From positions 1 to 40,596 of the forward strand of contig CALFAK010000039.1 of the NCBI GenBank assembly GCA_937948985.1: a DNA stretch of 40,596 bases, given 5' to 3'. This stretch comes from an uncultured Neomegalonema sp. Its GTDB lineage: Bacteria > Pseudomonadota > Alphaproteobacteria > Rhodobacterales > Rhodobacteraceae. Under the pieces are notes generated by a model that saw only the letters and a program-made list of their open reading frames with translations, searched no databases and was not told the origin of the DNA. Position numbers and translations under genes: made by a program. This document shows positions 5,143 through 37,618 of the stretch, in pieces (positions within the stretch are counted from its first letter, which is position 1; every line of letters begins with the position of its first letter).

Positions 5143-5558
5143 TCAGGTGATATATATTTTGCTGAATTGCTGTAACAGTTTGGCGAGTATGCCAACGCCG
5201 ATAGCGATATTCGTCAGGATGCCTTGTTTTGACTCGTGAAACCTGAGCAGAATGAGCATCGTTGCGGGCTCAATTACTTTCCTGAAAAATTTAAACAGCA
5301 GTATAATAATTATCGCAGTTATGTATATTATACTTGGAATGACAGTGAATATAAGAGATTCAGTGGTAATTATCCCATATATTTTCGCATTCAGCAAAAC
5401 ATTAGGATCTCTAGATAAGAATCCATGCATAATATGTTCGCCGGTATAGCTCTGTAAAAAAAATATCAGCACAATACCGATTGTTGCGGCAATCAAAGCG
5501 AGGACAATATCTAATATTGCTATAAAAATATAATAAAAAATTTTTTATCTTTATTCAA
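5143..5558 (-). CDS. AT-rich hypothetical membrane protein (frame break near N-terminus)
   Basis: The open frame downstream of about 5523 encodes roughly 125 residues with a first helix IAILDIVLALIAATIGIVLI, a soluble loop (QSYTGEHIMHGFLSRDPNVL), a second long helix (VIPSIIYITAIIIILLF) and a C-terminal helix before SKIYIT. In that frame there is no good start. A TTG at 5558-5556 overlaps the stop of the upstream gene as TTGA and reads LNKDKKFFIIF before the T5 run (plus-strand A5, 5524-5528); one extra base there would join it to the long frame. The gene is thus probably translationally coupled to the gene at 5555-6052. Base composition is strikingly AT-rich relative to all flanking genes, which suggests horizontal acquisition. 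Function unknown. Confidence 0.55.
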
Positions 5559-6052
5559 TATAATTTTTGTAATAAGTAAATCGTAATTGATATTGTTATA
5601 AAGCTCGTCGCAATCATGGCAGGAGATATTTTTAAGAAACTTAACACCACCCCCTCAGAAGGAATATTCATTGATACTGATACGGAATCGCACTCAGAAA
5701 AAATTCCGCAAGGTTTGTACTTTATATCAACTTCCTTCGGATAAATGATAAATTTGTATATGCAGGATACGAAAACATAACAAAAAGTGAAAAGCCCAGT
5801 TGATAAGACACGCTTCAATGACAGAAAATCCGGACCAAAAACTTTTTCAGCTTTTTTTGCCATGACCTCGATCCCGGCAAATACGATGTCATACAGCCCG
5901 TGATCGCCGACATAAAGCCATGCCTCACCCGCTTTTTCACGCAATTCAGCACGCGCGGTTTCGCCGATGAGCCAATCGATAAAAGTAAGAATCGCCACGA
6001 AGAATGCTATTGTGAAGAAGAATGAATCCGCGAAATTGGAAAAGAAGCTCAT
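5555..6052 (-). CDS. AT-rich hypothetical membrane protein, 165 aa
   Basis: Starts at ATG 6052 (MSFFSNFADSFFFTIAFFVA) after a GAAGGGGAA ribosome site. It has an N-terminal membrane helix (residues 11-28), then an amphipathic stretch WLIGETARAELREKAGEAWL, a segment VMAKKAEKVFGPDFLSLKR, a second membrane helix (about 88-108), a Cys-containing periplasmic loop and a C-terminal helix ending LLQKLY. The layout of helix, charged coiled segment, FGPDFLSLKR and helix looks like a family of uncharacterised bacterial inner-membrane proteins, but I cannot name it. The first third has normal codon use, while the last half is AT-rich like its downstream partner. Function unknown; a two-gene cassette is likely. 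Confidence 0.65.
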   Translation of the reverse strand: MSFFSNFADSFFFTIAFFVAILTFIDWLIGETARAELREKAGEAWLYVGDHGLYDIVFAGIEVMAKKAEKVFGPDFLSLKRVLSTGLFTFCYVFVSCIYKFIIYPKEVDIKYKPCGIFSECDSVSVSMNIPSEGVVLSFLKISPAMIATSFITISITIYLLQKLY

Positions 6053-6248
6053 AATATTCCCCTTCTTCAAGTCGGTTTGAAAACTAACCACAATAATAAT
6101 AGTTGAACAAGCGCTTTTACAATCATGGCAGTTAAGTTGAGCCAGCCTGAATCGTTTCGAGTGAGACAAACGACACCAGTAATCCCCCTTGCAAACCGTC
6201 TCGCAGGTGCAGCATAACGCGCGTGACAACGAGTGCAGGAGCGTGCGT

Positions 6249-7292
6249 ATGACTGAGAGTAAGACGAACCCCGGTCGGTTTTTTGAGGATTTTGAGCTGG
6301 GCGAGACGTTGGTTCATGCGACGCCGCGCACGGTGACGGAGGGGGATCGGGCGCTTTATATGGCGCTGTATCCGAGCCGCTTTGCGCTGTATTCATCGGA
6401 CCAGTTCGCCCGCAATTGCGGGTTTCCCGAAAGTCCGGTCGATGATCTGATCGGGTTTCATGTGGCGTTCGGCAAGACTGTGCCGGATATATCGCTGAAC
6501 GCGGTGGCCAATTTGGGCTATGCGGATTGCCGGATGCTGGTTCCGGTTTTCCCCGGCGATACGCTGAGCACGACATCCGACGTGATCGGGTTGAAGCAGA
6601 ACTCGAACGGGAAGACGGGGGTTGTCTACGTCCGCTCGACCGCGCGTAATCAGGCGGGTGAGGATGCGCTGACATGGGTGCGCTGGGTGATGGTGCGTAA
6701 GCGGGATGCGGATAGTCCGGCCCCCGAAACGGTGATCCCCGACCTGCCTGACTGTGTCGCGGCGGAGGATTTGGTTATGCCCGCCGAGGGGTTCCATTTC
6801 TCGAATTACGACTTTGATCTGGCGGGCGAGCCGTATGCGCTGGGTGACTACACGGTCGGTGAGATTATCGACCATGTGGACGGTGTGACCATTGAGGAAG
6901 CCGAGCATATGCTGGCCACGCGGCTGTGGCAGAATACGGCCAAGGTGCATTTCAACGTGGAGGCGCGCGAGGACGGGCGGCGATTGATCTATGGCGGGCA
7001 TGTCATCTCGCTGGCGCGGGCGCTCAGTTTTAACGGGTTGGCCAACGCGCAGATGATCGCGGCGATTAACGGGGGCAGCCATGTCGCGCCGTGCTTTGCC
7101 GGGGACACGGTTTATGCGTGGTCCGAGGTGCTGGATAAAGCGGAGTTGGCGCCCGGCGTCGGGGCGCTGCGCCTGCGTCTGGTGGCCACAAAAGGCCGCA
7201 GCGGCGACGCCCCGCGCCTGCGCGGCGAGGACGGGAAATATGCACCGGGCGTGCTGCTGGACCTCGATTATTGGGCGTTGATGCCGAGGTAA
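6249..7292 (+). CDS. mch: Mesaconyl-CoA hydratase (MaoC-type double hotdog)
   Basis: A 347-residue tandem hotdog-fold dehydratase. The N-terminal segment KTNPGRFFEDFELGETLVHA, TVTEGDRALYMALYPSRFAL and YSSDQFARNCG closely follow mesaconyl-CoA hydratase (beta-methylmalyl-CoA dehydratase) as I remember it from Rhodobacter. The enzyme interconverts mesaconyl-CoA and beta-methylmalyl-CoA in the ethylmalonyl-CoA pathway, used for growth on acetate and C1/C2 substrates. A second MaoC-like domain follows residue 190 (LGDYTVGEIIDHVDG, NGGSHVAPCFAGDTVYAWSEV). Start: ATG 6249, with AGGAG at 6237-6241. No other pathway gene is adjacent; the IS remnant follows. Confidence 0.85.
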   Translation: MTESKTNPGRFFEDFELGETLVHATPRTVTEGDRALYMALYPSRFALYSSDQFARNCGFPESPVDDLIGFHVAFGKTVPDISLNAVANLGYADCRMLVPVFPGDTLSTTSDVIGLKQNSNGKTGVVYVRSTARNQAGEDALTWVRWVMVRKRDADSPAPETVIPDLPDCVAAEDLVMPAEGFHFSNYDFDLAGEPYALGDYTVGEIIDHVDGVTIEEAEHMLATRLWQNTAKVHFNVEAREDGRRLIYGGHVISLARALSFNGLANAQMIAAINGGSHVAPCFAGDTVYAWSEVLDKAELAPGVGALRLRLVATKGRSGDAPRLRGEDGKYAPGVLLDLDYWALMPR

Positions 7293-7331
7293 TAGCAACG
7301 GCACCAACACTGATTGTTGCATTTCCGCTCT

Positions 7332-7350
7332 GCCTCGCACGTGATGCGGG
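7332..7350. repeat. Palindromic repeat, copy A
   Basis: A 19-base element, GCCTCGCACGTGATGCGGG, that can fold as CCTCGCA / TGCGGGG around a five-base loop. It matches 25083-25101 at 18 of 19 positions and resembles the reverse complement of the terminator stem at 25123-25143. It sits 40 bp after mch without a T-run, so it is more likely a dispersed repeat than a terminator. Confidence 0.5.
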
Positions 7351-7420
7351 GAAAGGGACATTTCTCAGTGTGATCGCTTGAAAGCGGGAGCCAATCTATC
7401 AGCGTCATTGTCGGGTTTGT

Positions 7421-7439
7421 CGCACGAGTGTCCGGCAGG
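7421..7439 (+). repeat. Terminal inverted repeat, left copy
   Basis: CGCACGAGTGTCCGGCAGG at 7421-7439 is the exact reverse complement of 8127-8145. Identity ends abruptly on the inner side and decays on the outer side, as expected for IS ends. Confidence 0.75.
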
Positions 7440-7448
7440 TTTCATGCA

Positions 7449-8042
7449 TCATAGTATGTTTCCTGAAAATCGGGTTTTACCTGCCTTGGATCGCTGTGTG
7501 TCTGTGGCGGTCTGTAAAGGTTGTCGGGGGGACCGTCTGCGCATCAATGTTGTGCGGACGGCGCGGAGGAATTCGAGGGGTCGGGTGATGGCGCTCTGCG
7601 CGCTTTGGGCGAGGCGCAGCAGCAGGAAGGGGATCATGTTGACGGCCACTTGCGCGCGAACCGCGTTCCCGGACGTGCCGATGAAACGGGTGATGTTGAG
7701 GCCCTGCTTGCGCAGCTTGCGATGCGCAAGCGCGATCATCTCCTCCAGCAGCCCCGAAAACGCCGCCGCATCGCGGTCCCGGTTCGCATCGGCAAGCGTC
7801 GTGCGCTTCAAGTTCGTACCGCCCGAATGATACATCCGTGCCGCATCGGGCGACACGGTCGTGACCGTCGCCCGAAGTCCCTGCACGCCCGAAAGCGCCC
7901 CGTTGAGAAGGTTGACCAGATGGTGGCGCGGCTTGAATGTGCGCGCGGTCTGCTCGTGACCATACTCCTTCGCAAGCGCGTCAAACCGCTGCTACGGAAT
8001 GTACTGGAGAAGCTGGTGAAACACGGTATTCTGATGGGGCAT
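7449..8042 (-). pseudogene. IS4-family transposase, truncated with internal stop
   Basis: The minus-strand reading starts at ATG 8042 with MPHQNTVFHQLLQYIP, meets an in-frame TAG at 7994-7992 where the family has Trp, and continues through the N-terminal DUF4372-like domain (FKPRHHLVNLLNGALSGVQ) to GLNITRFIGTS. There the sequence jumps to AVRAQVAVNMIPFLLLRLAQ, which belongs to the C-terminal end of these transposases. By memory of full-length relatives, roughly half of the protein is absent, including the catalytic acidic residues. The nonsense codon and the deletion both make it inactive. The reading ends at 7449, ten bases inside the left inverted repeat. Confidence 0.8.
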
Positions 8043-8126
8043 GGCGCGGGCTCCGTTCGTGTCTTCAGATCGCTGAATTTTCCAAACACGATCTCAATCA
8101 ACGCCATGCGCTCTGGCAAGCAAGTT

Positions 8127-30228: not shown

Positions 30229-30277
30229 TTTGGCGAATGCCGCGCCCCCTGACCTCGAAGAAAAAGAACACCTGATC

Positions 30278-32434
30278 GTGATACAAACGCTCGCCGATGC
30301 GCTGGAAAAGCGCGGCTATGACACCCTGACCCCCGTACAAGAGGCTGTAACCCAGCCTGAACTGGGGGATGCGGATCTGCTTGTTTCGGCGCAGACCGGA
30401 TCGGGCAAAACCGTCGGCTTCGGATTGGCGATCGCATCGACATTGCTGGGCGAGGAAACCCGCTTCGGCCCGCCCAGCACCCCCATTGCGCTGGCGATTG
30501 CGCCAACGCGTGAATTGGCGTTGCAGGTCAAAGCTGAACTGTCGTGGCTTTATGGCGAGACGGGCGCGGTTGTAACCTCATGCGTCGGCGGCATGGACCC
30601 GCGCGAAGAACGCCGCGCACTGTCCCGCGGTGCACACATTGTTGTCGGAACGCCGGGTCGTCTGCGTGATCATATCGAGCGTAACGCGCTGGATATGACC
30701 GATCTGCGCGCTGTTGTTCTGGATGAAGCGGATGAGATGCTCGATCTGGGCTTCCGCGAAGATCTTGAATTCATTCTCGGCCAATCCCCGGATGAACGCC
30801 GCACCCTGTTGTTTTCGGCGACCGTGCCACGCGGGATTGTTATGCTGGCGAAGCGCTATCAGCGCGATGCGGTTCGGGTCACGACCACGGCGGAGAAATC
30901 ACAACACTCCGACATTGAATACCGCGCCCTTTCTGTCGCAGCGCGCGATTCCGAGGCCGCTGTCATCAACGTGCTGCGTTATTACGAGGCGCAAAACGCA
31001 TTGGTCTTCTGTAATACGCGCGCAATGGTCAACCGCCTGACGACCCGCTTCTCCAACCGGGGCTTCGCCGTCGTGGCGCTCTCGGGCGAGCTGACCCAAA
31101 CCGAACGCAGCCATGCCTTGCAAGCGATGCGTGATGGCCGCGCCAAAGTCTGCGTCGCAACCGATGTGGCCGCGCGCGGGATCGATCTGCCGAACCTTGA
31201 ACTCGTGGTTCATGCCGAATTGCCGACCAACTCCGAAACCTTGCTCCACCGTTCGGGTCGTACCGGACGGGCGGGACGCAAGGGCGTCAGTGTCCTGATT
31301 GTCGCTGGCAGTGCCGGACGCAAAGCCGAGCGCTTGCTCAATGGCGCAAAAGTGCGTGCCGAATGGGCCGCGCCGCCCTCCGCTGACGAAGTGCTGGAAC
31401 AAGACGAAATCCGCTTGCTCGCCGATCCGTCATGGGCGCAGGAAATTGATGAGGGAGAGCGCGGCTTTGTCGAGAAACTGACGGGCCTGCACAGCGCTGA
31501 ACAGATCGCCGCCGCCTATATCCGCCTTCACCGCGCCCGCAAGTCCGCGCCTGAAGAAATTTCCGTGCGCCCTGTTAAAGCACCGGATGAGCGCGGCCCG
31601 AAAACGCCGCGCGTTGAATTCGGCCCAAGCGTGTGGTTCTCCGTTTCGGTCGGGCGCGCTGATAACGCGGAAGTCCGCTGGGTACTACCGATGGTCTGCC
31701 GCTCCGGCAACCTGACTCGCGACGATATTGGCGCGATACGCTTGCAGCAAAACGAAACTTTCGTCGAGATTTTAGAAGCCAGCGTCCCCAAATTCCTCGA
31801 AACCGTCGGGCCGGATATGAAGATGGAGGCGGGTGTCACCCTCACACGCCTTGAAGGCGCCCCGAACATCGCGCCACCGCCCCGCCGCGATGCTCCACCC
31901 CGCAAGCCCTACGGTGATAAATCCTATGGCGACAAAGGCGGCGACAGGGGACCACGTCCCCCGCGCAAAGAATACGGTGATAAACCGCGCCGCAACGATG
32001 ATGACCGCCCGCGCAAACCCTATGGAGACAAGCCGGAACGCAAACCCTACGCCGATAAACCCGACCGTCCGGCCTATAAAGACAAACCGAAACGCGAGGA
32101 TCGCGGCGATAAACCCGCTTATGCGAAAAAGCCGAAAAGCGACTGGAATCCCGACAAATCTCCGTCCCGCGCCAAACCGGAAAAGCCCGCACCGGAGCGC
32201 AAAGGCGGCTACGAGCCGAAGCCAAAAGCCGAGTATGGCGCAAAGCCGGACAAAAAACGCTTTGCCGGTGACCCGACCGACACATCTTCGTCGAAACGGC
32301 GTGGCGCTAAGGAGGGCGGCAAGAAGAAAGCCGTCGGCAAACCTGCGAAGCCGAAGTCGGCAGGTGCAATCAGCAAATCCCGCCGCCCCGTTGGTGGTGA
32401 TGATGTCCCCCGCCGCAAACCGTCGAAGGGGTGA
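30278..32434 (+). CDS. DEAD-box ATP-dependent RNA helicase with DbpA-type domain and basic repeat tail
   Basis: A helicase of about 718 residues. Q motif GYDTLTPVQEAV, Walker A AQTGSGKT, DEAD box LDEADEM, SAT in LLFSATVP, and motif VI HRSGRTGRAGRKG are all present. After the core there is a DbpA RNA-binding-like domain (VWFSVSVGRADNAEVRWVLP), then some 180 residues of low complexity built from units like KPYGDKP and rich in Lys, Arg, Pro and Asp. The start is uncertain. TTG 30230 would lie in the T-tail of the hairpin at 30199-30222; GTG 30278 gives a family-like N-terminus (MIQTLADALEKRGYDTL) and I prefer it. A 12-codon ORF (30237-30275) ends just before that GTG. Role: ribosome assembly or mRNA turnover. 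Confidence 0.9.
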   Translation: MIQTLADALEKRGYDTLTPVQEAVTQPELGDADLLVSAQTGSGKTVGFGLAIASTLLGEETRFGPPSTPIALAIAPTRELALQVKAELSWLYGETGAVVTSCVGGMDPREERRALSRGAHIVVGTPGRLRDHIERNALDMTDLRAVVLDEADEMLDLGFREDLEFILGQSPDERRTLLFSATVPRGIVMLAKRYQRDAVRVTTTAEKSQHSDIEYRALSVAARDSEAAVINVLRYYEAQNALVFCNTRAMVNRLTTRFSNRGFAVVALSGELTQTERSHALQAMRDGRAKVCVATDVAARGIDLPNLELVVHAELPTNSETLLHRSGRTGRAGRKGVSVLIVAGSAGRKAERLLNGAKVRAEWAAPPSADEVLEQDEIRLLADPSWAQEIDEGERGFVEKLTGLHSAEQIAAAYIRLHRARKSAPEEISVRPVKAPDERGPKTPRVEFGPSVWFSVSVGRADNAEVRWVLPMVCRSGNLTRDDIGAIRLQQNETFVEILEASVPKFLETVGPDMKMEAGVTLTRLEGAPNIAPPPRRDAPPRKPYGDKSYGDKGGDRGPRPPRKEYGDKPRRNDDDRPRKPYGDKPERKPYADKPDRPAYKDKPKREDRGDKPAYAKKPKSDWNPDKSPSRAKPEKPAPERKGGYEPKPKAEYGAKPDKKRFAGDPTDTSSSKRRGAKEGGKKKAVGKPAKPKSAGAISKSRRPVGGDDVPRRKPSKG

Positions 32435-32451: not shown

Positions 32452-33141
32452 TCATTCGTAATCAATGACCAGGAGTGAGTGATCGGAGATTTTGCTCAAT
32501 CGCGGGTCGTGGTCATAGTGCACGTCTGTTATGCGCGCATCGAAAGCGGGTGTCGCTAATCCGTGGTCGTAGCGGAAGCCATTCTGACGCTTTGCGCTGA
32601 CCCATGTGTATTCGCGGGCGTCCCCGTGGCGCGAACGCCATGTATCGACCCAGCCTTGTACGAGCAGTTGCTGGAACAGATGCGTGTTGACAAAGGTTTT
32701 CGTGTCTGAATCCTCAAACGGAATTCCGCAGTTCAGATCGCCGATCAGCAGCGCCTCGCGCTCAACAGGCAGATCAAGCAGGGAATGGAACAGCGGCACT
32801 TGCGCCTTCTTTTGCGGGAAATGCAGGGGATAGAGGGTCAGGTCATCGAACTGCGCGCGCAGGATGTGAGTGTGGCCATCCGCGTCCGGGAAATTCTCAA
32901 CCTCAAACGGCACGCGCGCGGCGATCAGGATCGTGTTTTCCTTGGCATCTTTCGTCTCAGGCAGATGGATTTGCGAGAAGCCCTGCGCTTGCAGCCCGCT
33001 GACCAGCGCATCATCATGCGCGCCGCGCCGGACCTCCTGCAATGTCAAGATGTCGGGCTTGTGGCTCTCAATGGTGTCGAGGATGCCGTCCATCCGCCGC
33101 CCGCCGCCATGCAGGATATTCCAGCTGAGAATCCGCGTCAT
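32452..33141 (-). CDS. Endonuclease/exonuclease/phosphatase (EEP) family enzyme, last gene of repair operon
   Basis: A 229-residue EEP-fold protein. Catalytic residues are in place: Asn8 (SWNILHG), Glu36 (LTLQEVR), His107 (YPLHFPQ), Asp135 and Asn137 (IGDLNCG), Asp192 (RYDHGLAT) and Asp220-His221 (ISDHSLL). Relatives include exonuclease III, APE1 and TDP2, which clean DNA ends, and also various phosphodiesterases. Its start overlaps the ligase stop as ATGA (33141-33138), so it is translationally coupled to the ligase. Context therefore points to DNA end processing. Convergent with the helicase gene. Confidence 0.85.
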   Translation of the reverse strand: MTRILSWNILHGGGRRMDGILDTIESHKPDILTLQEVRRGAHDDALVSGLQAQGFSQIHLPETKDAKENTILIAARVPFEVENFPDADGHTHILRAQFDDLTLYPLHFPQKKAQVPLFHSLLDLPVEREALLIGDLNCGIPFEDSDTKTFVNTHLFQQLLVQGWVDTWRSRHGDAREYTWVSAKRQNGFRYDHGLATPAFDARITDVHYDHDPRLSKISDHSLLVIDYE

Positions 33142-34607
33142 TCCTGTACGACCCAGCCTTTTTTGAATTTCGCTTTCTCCCACATCTCCCAAAAACCTTC
33201 GATCTGTTTGAGCGAGGAACTGACCCGGATGTCGTGCTGTAACGGGTCTTTGCGGTTGGGGGAGTAGTCGGTCAGGTGGATCGCAAAGGCGGGGTGGTCG
33301 CGGGACACTTCCTCTTTGTTGGTTTTCCACATGATGATCTTGCGCACCATCATCGCGCCCTTCATCTCCTTGGTCGCCACGGCCCGGCGCAGCACTGTGG
33401 AGGAGGGCAGTTTCACGTCCTCGGCGGTGCGGTCGGTCTCGGGGATGTGCGTAATGTCGGTCAGTTGCGAGAGCTTCACATCCTCGGCAGTTGCGGATTT
33501 ATCGTCGCGCAGGCGCAGGAATTGGGGCGAGATGATGCTGGCCAATGGCAAACGCCGCACACCCTGCCACGTTTTTTTCTTCGCATCCCACTCCAGCACC
33601 ATGCGGTCAATCGTGCCGCCATGCGAGGTTTGGGCGATGATATCGAGGCATGAAATCTCGACCACGATGCCCGGTTGGATCATACGATAGGCGACGCGGT
33701 CGGAGTTGACCTCGACAAAATCACTCTCCGCATCGCGCTTGCGCAGGGTTTTGAGCAGCTTGGTCCGATCCTCATCGGAAAAGCCGCCGCCGACGCGGCC
33801 TATGATCTGGAACGCGCCGTCCGTGCGGACGATCCCCAGCAGCATCGAGTGCAGCATTCCCGCACGGTCATCGACGCCTTCGGAATAGCCGATGACGGCG
33901 AGGTCGAGGGTATGGCGGGGTTTGATCTTGAAAACACCCGCCGCGTCAGAGCGGGCGACGACGCCCTCCGCGCCCTCCTTCTCGACCCATTTCGCGTATT
34001 GTTTGCGGACGGCTTTGAAATCTTCGCCCGTCACTGTTTCGACGGCGTGGACACGGTTGCCGGACTTGAACAGGGCTTGCGCTTTGGCGATGGCCTCAAA
34101 ATAGCGCATCGACAGATCTTCGCCGTCCAGGTCGTAGATGTTGAAGACGGCAAAGCAGAGCCGTTCCACGTCTTCCCTGGTCTTCGGGGCGCGGTTCAGG
34201 CGGGTGGCATCATGCACCCAGGCCCGCGCGCCATCTTCACGCCGCGCGTAGACCTCGCCGCCGAGCATGGCTTTTTTGATCTTGGCCTTTTTGAGCAGCG
34301 TGGCGGCTTCCTCGTGGAACATCGCGCCCGCACGAACCGCGCCGCCGGGGTTGAGGGTGATCACGTCGCCGCCGTCGTAATATAGGACCGCGAATTCGCC
34401 GTCATACTTTCGGCTGATCGCGTATTCGGCGGGGGGCAGACGTTTGGCGGCGGTGTCGAGATCGAACGCGGCCATCATCCGGCCCAGCTGGCGGCGGCGC
34501 AGGCGGACGGCTTGCAGGAGCGCGGGGTCTTTGAGCGCGTCCGCGTTACCGGTGGCGTATCCGGCGACTTTTTCTTTGAGCTTTTTGGGATCGGCGAGGC
34601 GTTTCAT
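33138..34607 (-). CDS. ATP-dependent DNA ligase
   Basis: A 489-residue nucleotidyltransferase. Motif I is KYDGEF with Lys67 as the AMP-accepting lysine; the usual Arg of KxDGxR is Phe72. LGGEVY (Glu118) is motif III-like, CFAVFNIYDL follows, EGVVAR (214-219) is motif IV and FKIKP (226-230) is motif V. An OB-fold domain with an RVGGGF segment follows around residues 250-300, and about 120 further residues (to KKGWVVQE) have no family I recognise. It is neither a plain LigC nor a LigD, because no polymerase or phosphoesterase domain is fused. Its start overlaps the stop of the gene at 34604 as ATGA, and its stop overlaps the EEP start. Confidence 0.88.
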   Translation of the reverse strand: MKRLADPKKLKEKVAGYATGNADALKDPALLQAVRLRRRQLGRMMAAFDLDTAAKRLPPAEYAISRKYDGEFAVLYYDGGDVITLNPGGAVRAGAMFHEEAATLLKKAKIKKAMLGGEVYARREDGARAWVHDATRLNRAPKTREDVERLCFAVFNIYDLDGEDLSMRYFEAIAKAQALFKSGNRVHAVETVTGEDFKAVRKQYAKWVEKEGAEGVVARSDAAGVFKIKPRHTLDLAVIGYSEGVDDRAGMLHSMLLGIVRTDGAFQIIGRVGGGFSDEDRTKLLKTLRKRDAESDFVEVNSDRVAYRMIQPGIVVEISCLDIIAQTSHGGTIDRMVLEWDAKKKTWQGVRRLPLASIISPQFLRLRDDKSATAEDVKLSQLTDITHIPETDRTAEDVKLPSSTVLRRAVATKEMKGAMMVRKIIMWKTNKEEVSRDHPAFAIHLTDYSPNRKDPLQHDIRVSSSLKQIEGFWEMWEKAKFKKGWVVQE

Positions 34608-35476
34608 TTCTTTGCCGCTTTCGCTTTCGCTTTGGCTTTGGTCTTTGGTTTCGCCTTAGGAGCGGCTTTCACCTTTGGCTTAGCGGCAGCTTTGGCCTTC
34701 GCCTTCGCTTTCGCAGGCTTTGGTTTCGCCTCCGCCTTCTTTGGAGTGGGTTTTTTCTCCTTCATCTTATCCGGCATTTCGGGGGGCGGTTTGAGTTCCA
34801 TGTTTGAGAGGTGCAGCAGCAGGATGTACTGGTCGCCACTGACCCGGCCTTCCAGAAATCCACGATATGGCGTCGAGCCGCGACGGAAGACCAGCGGTTG
34901 CTTGCCGGAACGTCCGCCGCCCAGCAGCATGACCGATTTCGCCTTATGAAGCTCCTCCGCCATACCATAGAGGAAATCGAAGGTCAGACCGTTCACATGG
35001 ACTATTTGCAGCTTCGAGGAGAAGACAAACTTCCTGTACGCCTCGGCTTTGGGCAGCATCGTGCCCGTCCATTTCAGCGGGACATCGGCATCTACATTCG
35101 CCTCGTCCCGCTCGCGGGGGCGGCGGTCTTTGACGCGCCCGAACGGGCCGCGCACGACTTCAAATTGCTCGATGCGAAAAACCAGCGCGTCTTCGGGGTC
35201 GGTGTAGACTCGACTGAGATTCCACAGCGATATGCCGAAGCGTTCAATGTCGATTTCGGGGTCGCCATCAACCAGCGCCTGTCCCAGTTTTTCCGGCGAG
35301 CCGGCCTGTTCCAGCAGCGTATCGTAGTCATGATCGACGGTCGCCTTGAGCACGCGGCGGGTATAGGCGCGCCCGCCTTTGGGGCCGACATAGCGGACGG
35401 GATCGGTGATCCGCACGCTCTCGGCCTTGACAACGGCGTCGCGTTTGCGGCTGTCGGTGAGATTTATGTTTGGCAT
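34604..35476 (-). CDS. Uncharacterised repair-operon protein with histone-like Lys/Ala tail
   Basis: A 290-residue protein. Residues 1-215 look like a folded alpha/beta domain (DPVRYVGPKGGRAYTRRVLK, LVDGDPEIDIERFGISL, SKLQIVHVNGLTFDFLYGMA, LLGGGRSGKQPLVFRRGSTP, YILLLHLSNMELKPPPE). I cannot assign it to a named family. The last 65 or so residues are repeats of Lys, Ala and Pro (units such as KPKAKAKAKA) resembling a histone H1-type tail, so binding to DNA is likely. Start ATG 35476 after GAGG; the stop overlaps the ligase start. Being inside this operon it is probably an accessory to the ligase or a scaffold. Confidence 0.72.
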   Translation of the reverse strand: MPNINLTDSRKRDAVVKAESVRITDPVRYVGPKGGRAYTRRVLKATVDHDYDTLLEQAGSPEKLGQALVDGDPEIDIERFGISLWNLSRVYTDPEDALVFRIEQFEVVRGPFGRVKDRRPRERDEANVDADVPLKWTGTMLPKAEAYRKFVFSSKLQIVHVNGLTFDFLYGMAEELHKAKSVMLLGGGRSGKQPLVFRRGSTPYRGFLEGRVSGDQYILLLHLSNMELKPPPEMPDKMKEKKPTPKKAEAKPKPAKAKAKAKAAAKPKVKAAPKAKPKTKAKAKAKAAKK

Positions 35477-35489
35477 CTTACCTCACTCA

Positions 35490-36152
35490 TCAAAGCATCC
35501 CGAAATCGAGGCCATCGCCTTCATCTTCCGCGTCATCATCATCGACCTGCGCCTTGTCGGCCCCGCAGAGCGCGGCTTCCTCCAGTCCGATGAACTCCAC
35601 GCCTGTTTCCTCGCCGATCAGCATCCAAATCGAGCCGCGTTCACCTTGGAGAATGAAGGCAACATCGGGATCGACTCCGCCGCGATAGCTGAACGGGACT
35701 TGGAAGATTTTGCCTTTCTCAAGCGCACTCATCAGCGGTTTCGGGACCGGATCATCGCCGCCCAAGCGGTAGCAAAGGCGGATGGTGTGGTCGAGGAAGG
35801 TTTCTATATCAACCTCGGTGGCGATTTCGGTGGGGGCTTTGAAGCTGGACTCCATTTCGACCAGCGGCTTGCCCTTGGCATCGACGGGCACCAGATCGCC
35901 CCGATCCACCCACTCCCCGGCGGGGTTCATGTAGCCGAAAGCCGTGCCGCCACTGGGGATCAGCGTGCGACCGTCGCTGGCCAGCGTGGACAGCTTGCAC
36001 AGCGCGCCATCGGCGTTAACCGTCTCCACCACCACCGAGCCATAGAGTTTGGTGCGGTCGAGCTTCTCGATCTCCCGCGAGAAAGTCTTGCCCTTAAACG
36101 TGAATTCCAGACTGCGCGCCATGTGGTCCCCTTCGGTGGAGGACCGTGCCAA
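35490..36152 (-). CDS. Uncharacterised repair-operon protein with acidic C-terminus (possible Ku-like scaffold)
   Basis: A 220-residue protein: N-terminal beta-rich segment (SLEFTFKGKTFSREIEK), then GGTAFGYMNPAGEWVDRGDL, EVDIETFLDHTIRLCYRLGG and a second domain (IFQVPFSYRGGVDPDVAFIL). The last 20 residues are strongly acidic and end DGLDFGML, recalling the acidic protein-docking tips of SSB. The order GY..GEWV, IETFL and CYRL roughly parallels the core of bacterial Ku (GY..GE.V, I.-FV, .Y.L), but the similarity is too weak to claim homology. Start ATG 36152 with AGGGGA upstream; gaps of 28 and 13 bp to its neighbours mark it as part of the operon. Confidence 0.7.
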   Translation of the reverse strand: MARSSTEGDHMARSLEFTFKGKTFSREIEKLDRTKLYGSVVVETVNADGALCKLSTLASDGRTLIPSGGTAFGYMNPAGEWVDRGDLVPVDAKGKPLVEMESSFKAPTEIATEVDIETFLDHTIRLCYRLGGDDPVPKPLMSALEKGKIFQVPFSYRGGVDPDVAFILQGERGSIWMLIGEETGVEFIGLEEAALCGADKAQVDDDDAEDEGDGLDFGML

Positions 36153-36180
36153 GGCGAGGGGGCCGGAGTCAACGCTCCTG

Positions 36181-37407
36181 TCACCCCGCGATCTGCCGGG
36201 CCAGCTTCAACGCTGTTGCAAACGCCTTCACGCCGTCTTCTTCAGGGCGACAAGTTACGCCGCGATCATCGATATACGCTTGCGCGGGGGGCTTGCCGTG
36301 GGCGTTGTGGATCTTGTCATAAGCAAAGCCGTGTTCGTCGAGCCAGGCTTTGAGCGCCGTCACCAATGCTTTACGCTCAGCGGCTTTGGCGCGTGAAAGG
36401 CGGGCGGTGAGGATGGTTATATCGGCCCATTCTGAAAGAGTACGGGTGAAATCGACCGCGCCGTCAATCGGTTCACCGAACTCTATCAGCGACCCGCCAT
36501 CGTGGCGATGCAGCACACCATCGAGGTCGACGCAGATGGTCGCCTTGCCCTCCCGTTTGAAACGGCGCTTGCGGGCGGCAGCGGTTTTAGCGGGTTTGGG
36601 TTTGTCCGCCGTGCGCCGCGTCGTGCGTGAGCCGTACTCGGCCCCTTCGGGTGCGGGCGGCGGGGGTGGGCCGGGAATGGCGGTCAGCATCCGGTCAATG
36701 GCGGCATCACCCTCCAGCCACGGGTCGTCGAGATAGTCTTCGCCGCTCCAAACACGGGCGTAATGCTCCTGCGTATGGTGCAGGCCGGGCAGGCGAAACC
36801 ATGCACCGAGGCTGCGCGGTTTGAGCTTTTTCGGGAATGTCTCCGGCTCCTCATCCAGATGCGATGCCTCCCATGTCGAGACCAGCGAATAGGCCAGCGC
36901 GAACACATCCTCCGTCGGTGCGGGGTCGGCGAACAGCACCCACAGATGCAGTCCGCCCGCGCCGTTTGTGTCGAACAACAGCGGATCATAGCCCTGCGCC
37001 TGCAGCCGCTCGCACCAGTCGAGGGCGGCGGCCAGATTCCGGCGCGCGTGTTCTTCGGCGGTGGGCTTGTCAATATCGTGCATATCGATATCGATGCCGA
37101 GCCACTTGCTGGTGTTCTCTTTCGATTTGGTTTGCAGGCCGATGATTTGCGGTTTGCGATAGTGACGGCTGGAAAAATGGCGGGTCAGTTTGTCGATTGT
37201 GACGTGGTCCGAGCCGTCGCGCATCGACACCATCGGTAGGGTCATGGCTTTGTAGGATTTGCCTGTTTTCTTACGCTCGGCGGGGGTCAACACGCTGTAT
37301 TGGCCCCAGATATCCTTGCGATTGACGAGGCGTTCCATCGCCCAATCCGCCAACTCACCCGCCCGCGCCGCCCATTCATCCCCAACAATTTCATGCCGTG
37401 TTGCCAA
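36181..37407 (-). CDS. Archaeo-eukaryotic primase-like polymerase fused to a HAD phosphatase
   Basis: A 408-residue two-domain protein and first gene of the operon. Residues 30-240 carry AEP/Prim-Pol motifs: GIDIDMHD (Asp106, Asp108), NGAGGLHLW (His154 in the sxH-type motif) and GAWFRLPGLHHT (basic motif III). A Pro-rich/basic linker (245-287) leads to a HAD domain: CVDLDGVLH (Asp294, Asp296), TILTAR (Thr334), the Lys of HGKPPAQ and YIDDRG (Asp380/381). HAD enzymes of this sort include DNA 3'-phosphatases. Filling and end-dephosphorylation in one chain would prepare ends for the ligase downstream. The start is TTG 37407, with AGGAG at 37416-37420. Confidence 0.83.
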   Translation of the reverse strand: MATRHEIVGDEWAARAGELADWAMERLVNRKDIWGQYSVLTPAERKKTGKSYKAMTLPMVSMRDGSDHVTIDKLTRHFSSRHYRKPQIIGLQTKSKENTSKWLGIDIDMHDIDKPTAEEHARRNLAAALDWCERLQAQGYDPLLFDTNGAGGLHLWVLFADPAPTEDVFALAYSLVSTWEASHLDEEPETFPKKLKPRSLGAWFRLPGLHHTQEHYARVWSGEDYLDDPWLEGDAAIDRMLTAIPGPPPPPAPEGAEYGSRTTRRTADKPKPAKTAAARKRRFKREGKATICVDLDGVLHRHDGGSLIEFGEPIDGAVDFTRTLSEWADITILTARLSRAKAAERKALVTALKAWLDEHGFAYDKIHNAHGKPPAQAYIDDRGVTCRPEEDGVKAFATALKLARQIAG

Positions 37408-37542: not shown

Positions 37543-37618
37543 TGGTGCCCGGAGACAGACTTGAACTGCCGACACGCGGATTTTCAATCCGCTGCTCTAC
37601 CAACTGAGCTATCCGGGC
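37543..37618 (-). tRNA. tRNA-Phe (GAA)
   Basis: On the minus strand a complete cloverleaf: acceptor GCCCGGA pairs with TCCGGGC, D arm with AGCTCAGTTGGTAGAGC, anticodon loop ATTGAAAAT with GAA, T arm with GTTCAAGTC, discriminator A and an encoded CCA (37545-37543). Length 76. It sits at the end of the infA-maf-rng-yacG set and immediately upstream of the repair operon. Confidence 0.97.

Follow-up and report, generated by a model that had tools for sequence, protein, structure and literature searches.

A candidate bacterial end-joining operon encoding two predicted Ku-like proteins, a DNA ligase and a primase-polymerase fused to a phosphatase

The window analyzed here is the whole of a 40,596-nucleotide stretch of DNA from an uncultured Neomegalonema sp. 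(assembly GCA_937948985.1, contig CALFAK010000039.1). It carries five minus-strand genes, spanning 37407..32452 and confirmed as real, that quite probably form an operon for the end joining of double-strand breaks. In order of transcription the genes encode a fusion of an AEP primase-polymerase with a HAD-type phosphatase domain (AEP-HAD), two proteins that we call A and B, an ATP-dependent DNA ligase, and an EEP-family nuclease. Judged by predicted structures, A and B are likely a two-gene Ku-like pair: Ku is the top structural match for both, although the model of protein B is poor. As a heterodimer they would recruit the adjacent ligase.

What are proteins A and B? The model of protein A is fair (predicted local distance difference test, pLDDT, 76.5) and displays the Ku core fold. 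Its structural matches in the PDB at E<=0.001 are without exception Ku chains or Ku-containing complexes (48 of 48), the best at 2e-6. Protein B yielded a model with a pLDDT of 54.7, and all 50 matches listed for it are Ku, with a best E of 1.6e-3. No such relationship is visible at the level of sequence. Neither protein matches a Pfam family above its cut-off by hmmscan, Ku (PF02735) included, and the PF02735 profile finds nothing up to E 10 among 49 members of the A family and 40 of the B family. Alignment of A and B by hhalign with 29 Ku open reading frames from 25 loci was not significant, with unrelated control pairs scoring alike. The comparison of A with B was not significant either (0.1%), and searches of the PDB with the A and B sequence profiles gave no link to Ku. 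A vWA domain was not detected in the Pfam scan of the window proteins.

Because protein A has the predicted Ku fold while its sequence goes unrecognized by the Ku profile, we class the operon as a probable variant of non-homologous end joining (NHEJ), outside the Ku-LigD family. A preliminary description, made from the letters of the window, had proposed a candidate Ku-less operon for end joining or gap repair, with a pair of unknown proteins taking the role of Ku. The structural matches support the end-joining guess, and the idea of stand-ins for Ku was largely right. 'Ku-less' holds for sequence, as profile search of the genome found neither a PF02735 Ku nor LigD_N, the phosphoesterase (PE) domain of LigD; it does not hold for fold.

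Protein A has an acidic C-terminus ending in DFGML. The tail of protein B (window 34604-34770) is Lys/Ala-rich, with a K+R fraction of 0.44. Precomputed SAM domains occur in 29 of 120 listed protein B homologues, and the one in the protein B of relative L017 (L017:8001-9554) was confirmed. The SAM domain forms the C-terminus of protein B in some Granulosicoccaceae relatives; most loci of other phyla have little or nothing extra there.

Both Pfam models DNA_ligase_A_M (38.7 bits) and DNA_ligase_A_C (46.9 bits) score above cut-off on the window ligase. Of the NCBIfam models, the one for NHEJ ligases, TIGR02779, fits it best (1.6e-20; 73.6 bits, under the cut-off of 227.75). A ligase profile was built from 22 members of the 77 frames found; the 31 PDB sequences that it hits at E<=0.001 are all DNA ligases, DNA ligase 4 included. 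The KxDG motif is present in 75 of 75 aligned rows; a strict motif pattern, which found it in only 25 of the 77 frames, was misleading. The same genome has another ATP-dependent ligase elsewhere (G000:C177:7363-7911), in a frame of 569 aa.

The AEP domain scores 29.3 bits with Pfam AEP-TOTE, just over the cut-off of 27. In the copy of the window, Pfam did not pick up the HAD half. Among solved chains, an AEP-HAD profile (20 of 44 members) matches 7nqf/7nqd, which are CRISPR-associated primase-polymerases, at 6e-6, and at 3e-8 it matches 1xpj, which we take to be HAD-like. The AEP residues DxD and GGxH and the HAD residues DLDG/DD are invariant in 20 aligned relatives, the I of IDD being variable, and DxDG is found in 41 of 44 AEP-HAD rows, the remaining 3 being gaps. 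The nuclease matches Pfam Exo_endo_phos (44.7 bits, 1.7e-11), NCBIfam xth at 9.7e-18 (under cut-off) and exonuclease chains of the PDB at 1.6e-9. WN, QE and SDH patterns are present in all 25 of its family members and GDxN in 18. The catalytic motifs of AEP, HAD, ligase and EEP are conserved.

The gene layout is given in Table 1. Five minus-strand genes, ATGA overlaps between B and ligase (34604-34607) and between ligase and nuclease (33138-33141), and a gap of 13 bp from A to B had all been described correctly. A 28-bp gap before protein A had presumed a TTG start at 36152. We moved this start to the ATG at 36122 because most of 120 listed homologues are about 205-215 aa long and the conserved N-terminus MARxLxF begins there; the gap then becomes 58 bp. 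The nuclease start was likewise corrected, to the ATG at 33141.

Table 1. Genes of the candidate end-joining operon and the adjoining tRNA gene (window coordinates).
Feature	Position	Strand	Basis and remarks
Fusion of AEP (primase-polymerase) and a HAD-type phosphatase domain	36181..37407	-	Pfam AEP-TOTE; TTG start as given; predicted gap-filling polymerase and end-cleaning phosphatase
Protein A, first member of the putative Ku-like pair; 210 aa, Ku core fold predicted	35490..36122	-	
Protein B, 290 aa; predicted Ku-core-like fold, Lys/Ala-rich C-terminal tail	34604..35476	-	
ATP-dependent DNA ligase of 489 aa, with extensions at both termini that are specific to the family	33138..34607	-	Pfam DNA_ligase_A_M/A_C
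EEP-family nuclease of 229 aa, similar to exonuclease III; would process 3' ends or abasic sites	32452..33141	-	Pfam Exo_endo_phos
tRNA-Phe (context only)	37543..37618	-	ARAGORN; operon begins about 136 bp downstream of the tRNA 3' end

Do these genes belong together? We scanned one genome per species with a protein B alignment, which returned 204 relatives, and kept the best 80 loci, all from metagenome-assembled genomes (MAGs). Selection was by protein B alone and took the nearest relatives, so that proteobacterial arrangements are over-represented. The closest named relative is an uncultured Neomegalonema (L002), with a protein B 97% identical over 236 columns. By record title, the 80 loci span eight phyla (Pseudomonadota, Planctomycetota, Acidobacteriota, Cyanobacteriota, Verrucomicrobiota, Myxococcota, Thermodesulfobacteriota and Chloroflexota); L073 has no label, and L041 is labeled Cyanobacteria but falls among Proteobacteria. 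Taking genes on the same strand within about 700 bp as adjacent, protein A lies next to B in 70 of the 80 loci, further off in 1, is absent from 5 and has too little room to fit whole in 4. For the ligase the figures are 70 loci with adjacency to B, 5 with the gene further off, 4 without it and 1 with no room for it. AEP-HAD is present in 43 loci, the nuclease in 24 and the complete set of five in 20; 23 of the 24 loci with a nuclease are labeled Proteobacteria. As the same genes recur together in distant phyla, the arrangement is far beyond chance. The expected co-occurrence is borne out for A, B and the ligase, and only in part for AEP-HAD and the nuclease: the core has three to four genes, and its extension to five is seen largely in Proteobacteria.

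The pairing of A with B extends beyond the locus itself. Nine loci have no protein A, and six of these genomes hold it elsewhere, which brings A and B together in 77 of 80 genomes; this, with six pairs unlinked, is what an obligate heterodimer predicts. Of the three genomes without A, L051 and L071 have B right at the beginning of its contig. The third, a Desulfatirhabdium MAG (G209; L069, 494-1207), has B with no A in the genome and no ligase in its 7-kb locus. As B does not begin until base 494, the greater part of an adjacent A ought to be seen; none is, and L069 is the one clear exception to the pairing, unless the genome is incomplete. AEP-HAD, too, is found away from the locus: its profile has matches elsewhere in 22 of the 37 genomes that lack AEP there. 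Of these, 21 cover at least part of the AEP domain. The match in G219 is to the HAD part only, that in G213 begins at position 197, and that in G191 is weak, lacks HAD and lies in a 1011-aa frame; some of the others may reflect contig breaks rather than separate sites. The core is A, B and ligase, usually with AEP-HAD somewhere in the genome, and the nuclease is mainly a proteobacterial addition.

Does this gene set take the place of classical Ku? Classical Ku was detected in one of the 80 operon genomes (G192, Prosthecobacter). Background frequencies are 19 of 142 Alphaproteobacteria and 27 of 196 genomes from the order of the Pirellulaceae genome G176. The Fisher p values for the difference are 0.0013 (class) and 0.0007 (G176's order), with the window's own genome excluded from the former background and two operon genomes from the latter. 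The scarcity of Ku suggests replacement by the operon, in a comparison of unmatched lineages and incomplete MAGs. All such profile-search counts, those of Ku included, are lower bounds, as a PF01068 search of the window's own genome missed the very ligase that hmmscan finds. LigD_N was found in 11 of 50 genomes (the own genome and 49 of the 80): strongly in four (G192, which has Ku, and G199, G200 and G220) and weakly in seven, in frames of 113-208 aa. G199, G200 and G220, which have no detected classical Ku, carry their strong LigD_N in short frames (165-317 aa), suggesting a stand-alone PE enzyme. Protein B itself is rare. It occurs in 1 of 142 genomes of its own class and 1 of 196 of its own order, the window genome both times, and in 2 of 196 genomes of G176's order.

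How might the operon work? Proteins A and B, both with a predicted Ku core fold, would close around a broken DNA end as a Ku-like heterodimer, marking and holding the ends. The exonuclease III-like nuclease and the HAD phosphatase could clean blocked 3' (or 5') termini and the AEP domain fill gaps, while the ligase, recruited by the A-B heterodimer, would seal the break. We infer the mutual binding of A and B, the encirclement of DNA, the recruitment of the enzymes and the action on double-strand breaks. On balance, we favor the broader view that these loci represent a second bacterial end-joining machinery, unrecognizable by sequence. Its parts would be a Ku heterodimer of two obligate partners encoded by separate genes, a DNA ligase of its own and a fusion of AEP with a phosphatase; it would largely have replaced Ku-LigD in uncultured lineages of eight phyla and have been taken up by a phage too.

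Could the same genes serve another kind of repair? An AEP polymerase and an ATP-dependent ligase outside LigD are also the content of the mycobacterial LigC/Prim-PolC complexes, which repair bases and gaps (PMC5663958). Together with the exonuclease III-like character of the nuclease, this brings to mind a gap or base-excision repair complex in which the nuclease nicks abasic sites, AEP fills, the ligase seals, and A and B are DNA-binding scaffolds rather than end-gripping rings. We consider this unlikely: the nuclease is present in just 24 of the 80 loci, whereas the two Ku-like proteins and the ligase form the constant core. The abstract of PMC5663958 names no Ku-like pair, and the window AEP belongs to a different Pfam family, with no match to LigD_Prim-Pol (PF21686) up to E 1; one relative (L077) reaches 0.041. 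It is quite unlikely that A and B share merely a generic SPOC/Ku-type beta-barrel and act otherwise, for example in protein recruitment at the replication fork.

An RNA repair or conflict system, in which an AEP-HAD of the TOTE or 'Swiss army knife' kind helps to heal cut RNA, seems very unlikely to us. It would fit with AEP-TOTE as the nearest Pfam family of the AEP domain, with a match of the HAD of relative L077 to HAD_SAK_2 (below cut-off), and with the 27 bits, right at cut-off, that Pfam RNA_ligase scores on the window ligase. In L007, RNA_ligase (27.5) even exceeds DNA_ligase_A_M (26.1, below cut-off). Yet DNA_ligase_A_C leads there at 37.5, both DNA_ligase_A models outscore RNA_ligase in the window, and at E<=0.001 the ligase profile matches nothing but DNA ligases among PDB sequences. 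TOTE stands for TPR, OB, TBP and Effector (PMC12458937), and the first three are absent from the Pfam scan of nine window proteins (the five genes and four neighbors). No PADLOC match was obtained up to E 0.01 except for one weak AEP hit, and Ku-like folds suit double-stranded DNA ends.

Among known systems, the end-joining operon invites comparison with Ku-LigD of M. tuberculosis and B. subtilis, with which it shares a Ku-type fold, here a predicted one, encoded together with an ATP-dependent ligase, an AEP polymerase and end-cleaning activities. It differs in having two distinct Ku-like genes instead of one, neither matching PF02735, and in distributing over several chains the polymerase, phosphoesterase and ligase activities that LigD unites in one; HAD and exonuclease III-like enzymes replace the phosphoesterase domain of LigD. 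Another parallel is offered by DNA ligase 4 and Ku70/Ku80 of eukaryotes, given two non-identical subunits with a predicted Ku fold and a separate ligase, ligase 4 being among the PDB matches of our ligase profile. Here the differences are the undetected vWA domain, tails that are Lys-rich or SAM instead of SAP, and a very distant sequence. Bacterial Ku is described as predominantly homodimeric (PMC1378119, PMC11936186). The idea of a bacterial Ku heterodimer is already in print for genomes with two ku genes in one operon (PMC1378119), and several ku-like genes are reported in Streptomyces (PMC5124664). The genes of those two-ku operons are called Ku by homology, whereas neither subunit of the present pair can be recognized by sequence.

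A survey of Ku was conducted by BLAST from M. tuberculosis Ku (PMC11936186), and a genome scored as lacking Ku in such a manner may be taken to lack end joining. A widespread Ku-fold pair missed by every Ku profile would, if true, redraw the map of bacterial end joining. The Ku70/Ku80 split would also gain a counterpart in bacteria, and research and genome engineering would gain a heterodimeric end-joining set of compact size. That all 80 loci come from MAGs may be why the system went unnoticed. We recognized no description of this gene set in titles and abstract starts, a search that left most subscription papers uncovered and makes novelty provisional.

Have the core genes been inherited together? 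In the 62 loci that have all three of A, B and ligase, the correlation of pairwise distances is 0.89 for A-B, 0.92 for B-ligase and 0.90 for A-ligase, against a maximum of 0.13 in 500 permutations. The family looks old and patchily kept, not freely mobile, because the protein B tree follows phyla closely (8 label changes, the least possible being 7). A phage-like IMG/VR contig (L114; IMGVR_UViG_3300028031_000090, 5354-8079) holds the bare core in unchanged order: A, at 28% identity, then B and the ligase. Nearby are genes for an integrase, a ParA-like protein and a replication initiator, along with a weak match of a tail-related kind. This divergent core perhaps serves to circularize or protect the phage's own genome. 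Searching with L114's own A and B, at a sensitivity for close relatives, returned only L114 itself. The B profile confirmed none among viral contigs, though L114, found through A, does hold a B; plasmid and phage records gave no match to protein B.

The operon is flanked by the tRNA-Phe on one side and a convergent DEAD-box helicase (30230-32434) on the other. Integration at the tRNA was considered and rejected: the window holds no second copy of the tRNA-Phe 3' end and no att-like repeat, and a tRNA of any kind is found in only 2 of 34 relative loci scanned. Clustering of neighbor genes present in at least 4 loci revealed no likely component beyond the five families, only antisense or out-of-frame shadows and lineage-specific synteny. 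Of ten flanking or intervening proteins that we scanned, most had no match or were unrelated, among them an ACT domain, a carbonic anhydrase, a TetR, a transporter and an HD domain. An exception is seen in L055 (4186-5514), a Myxococcales locus that lacks AEP: a protein with a NIF-type HAD phosphatase domain follows the ligase and possibly replaces the phosphatase of AEP-HAD. In a Pirellulaceae locus (L064:4877-6076), an EAD1-trypsin (effector-associated) protein comes directly after the ligase, a hint of a conflict setting there.

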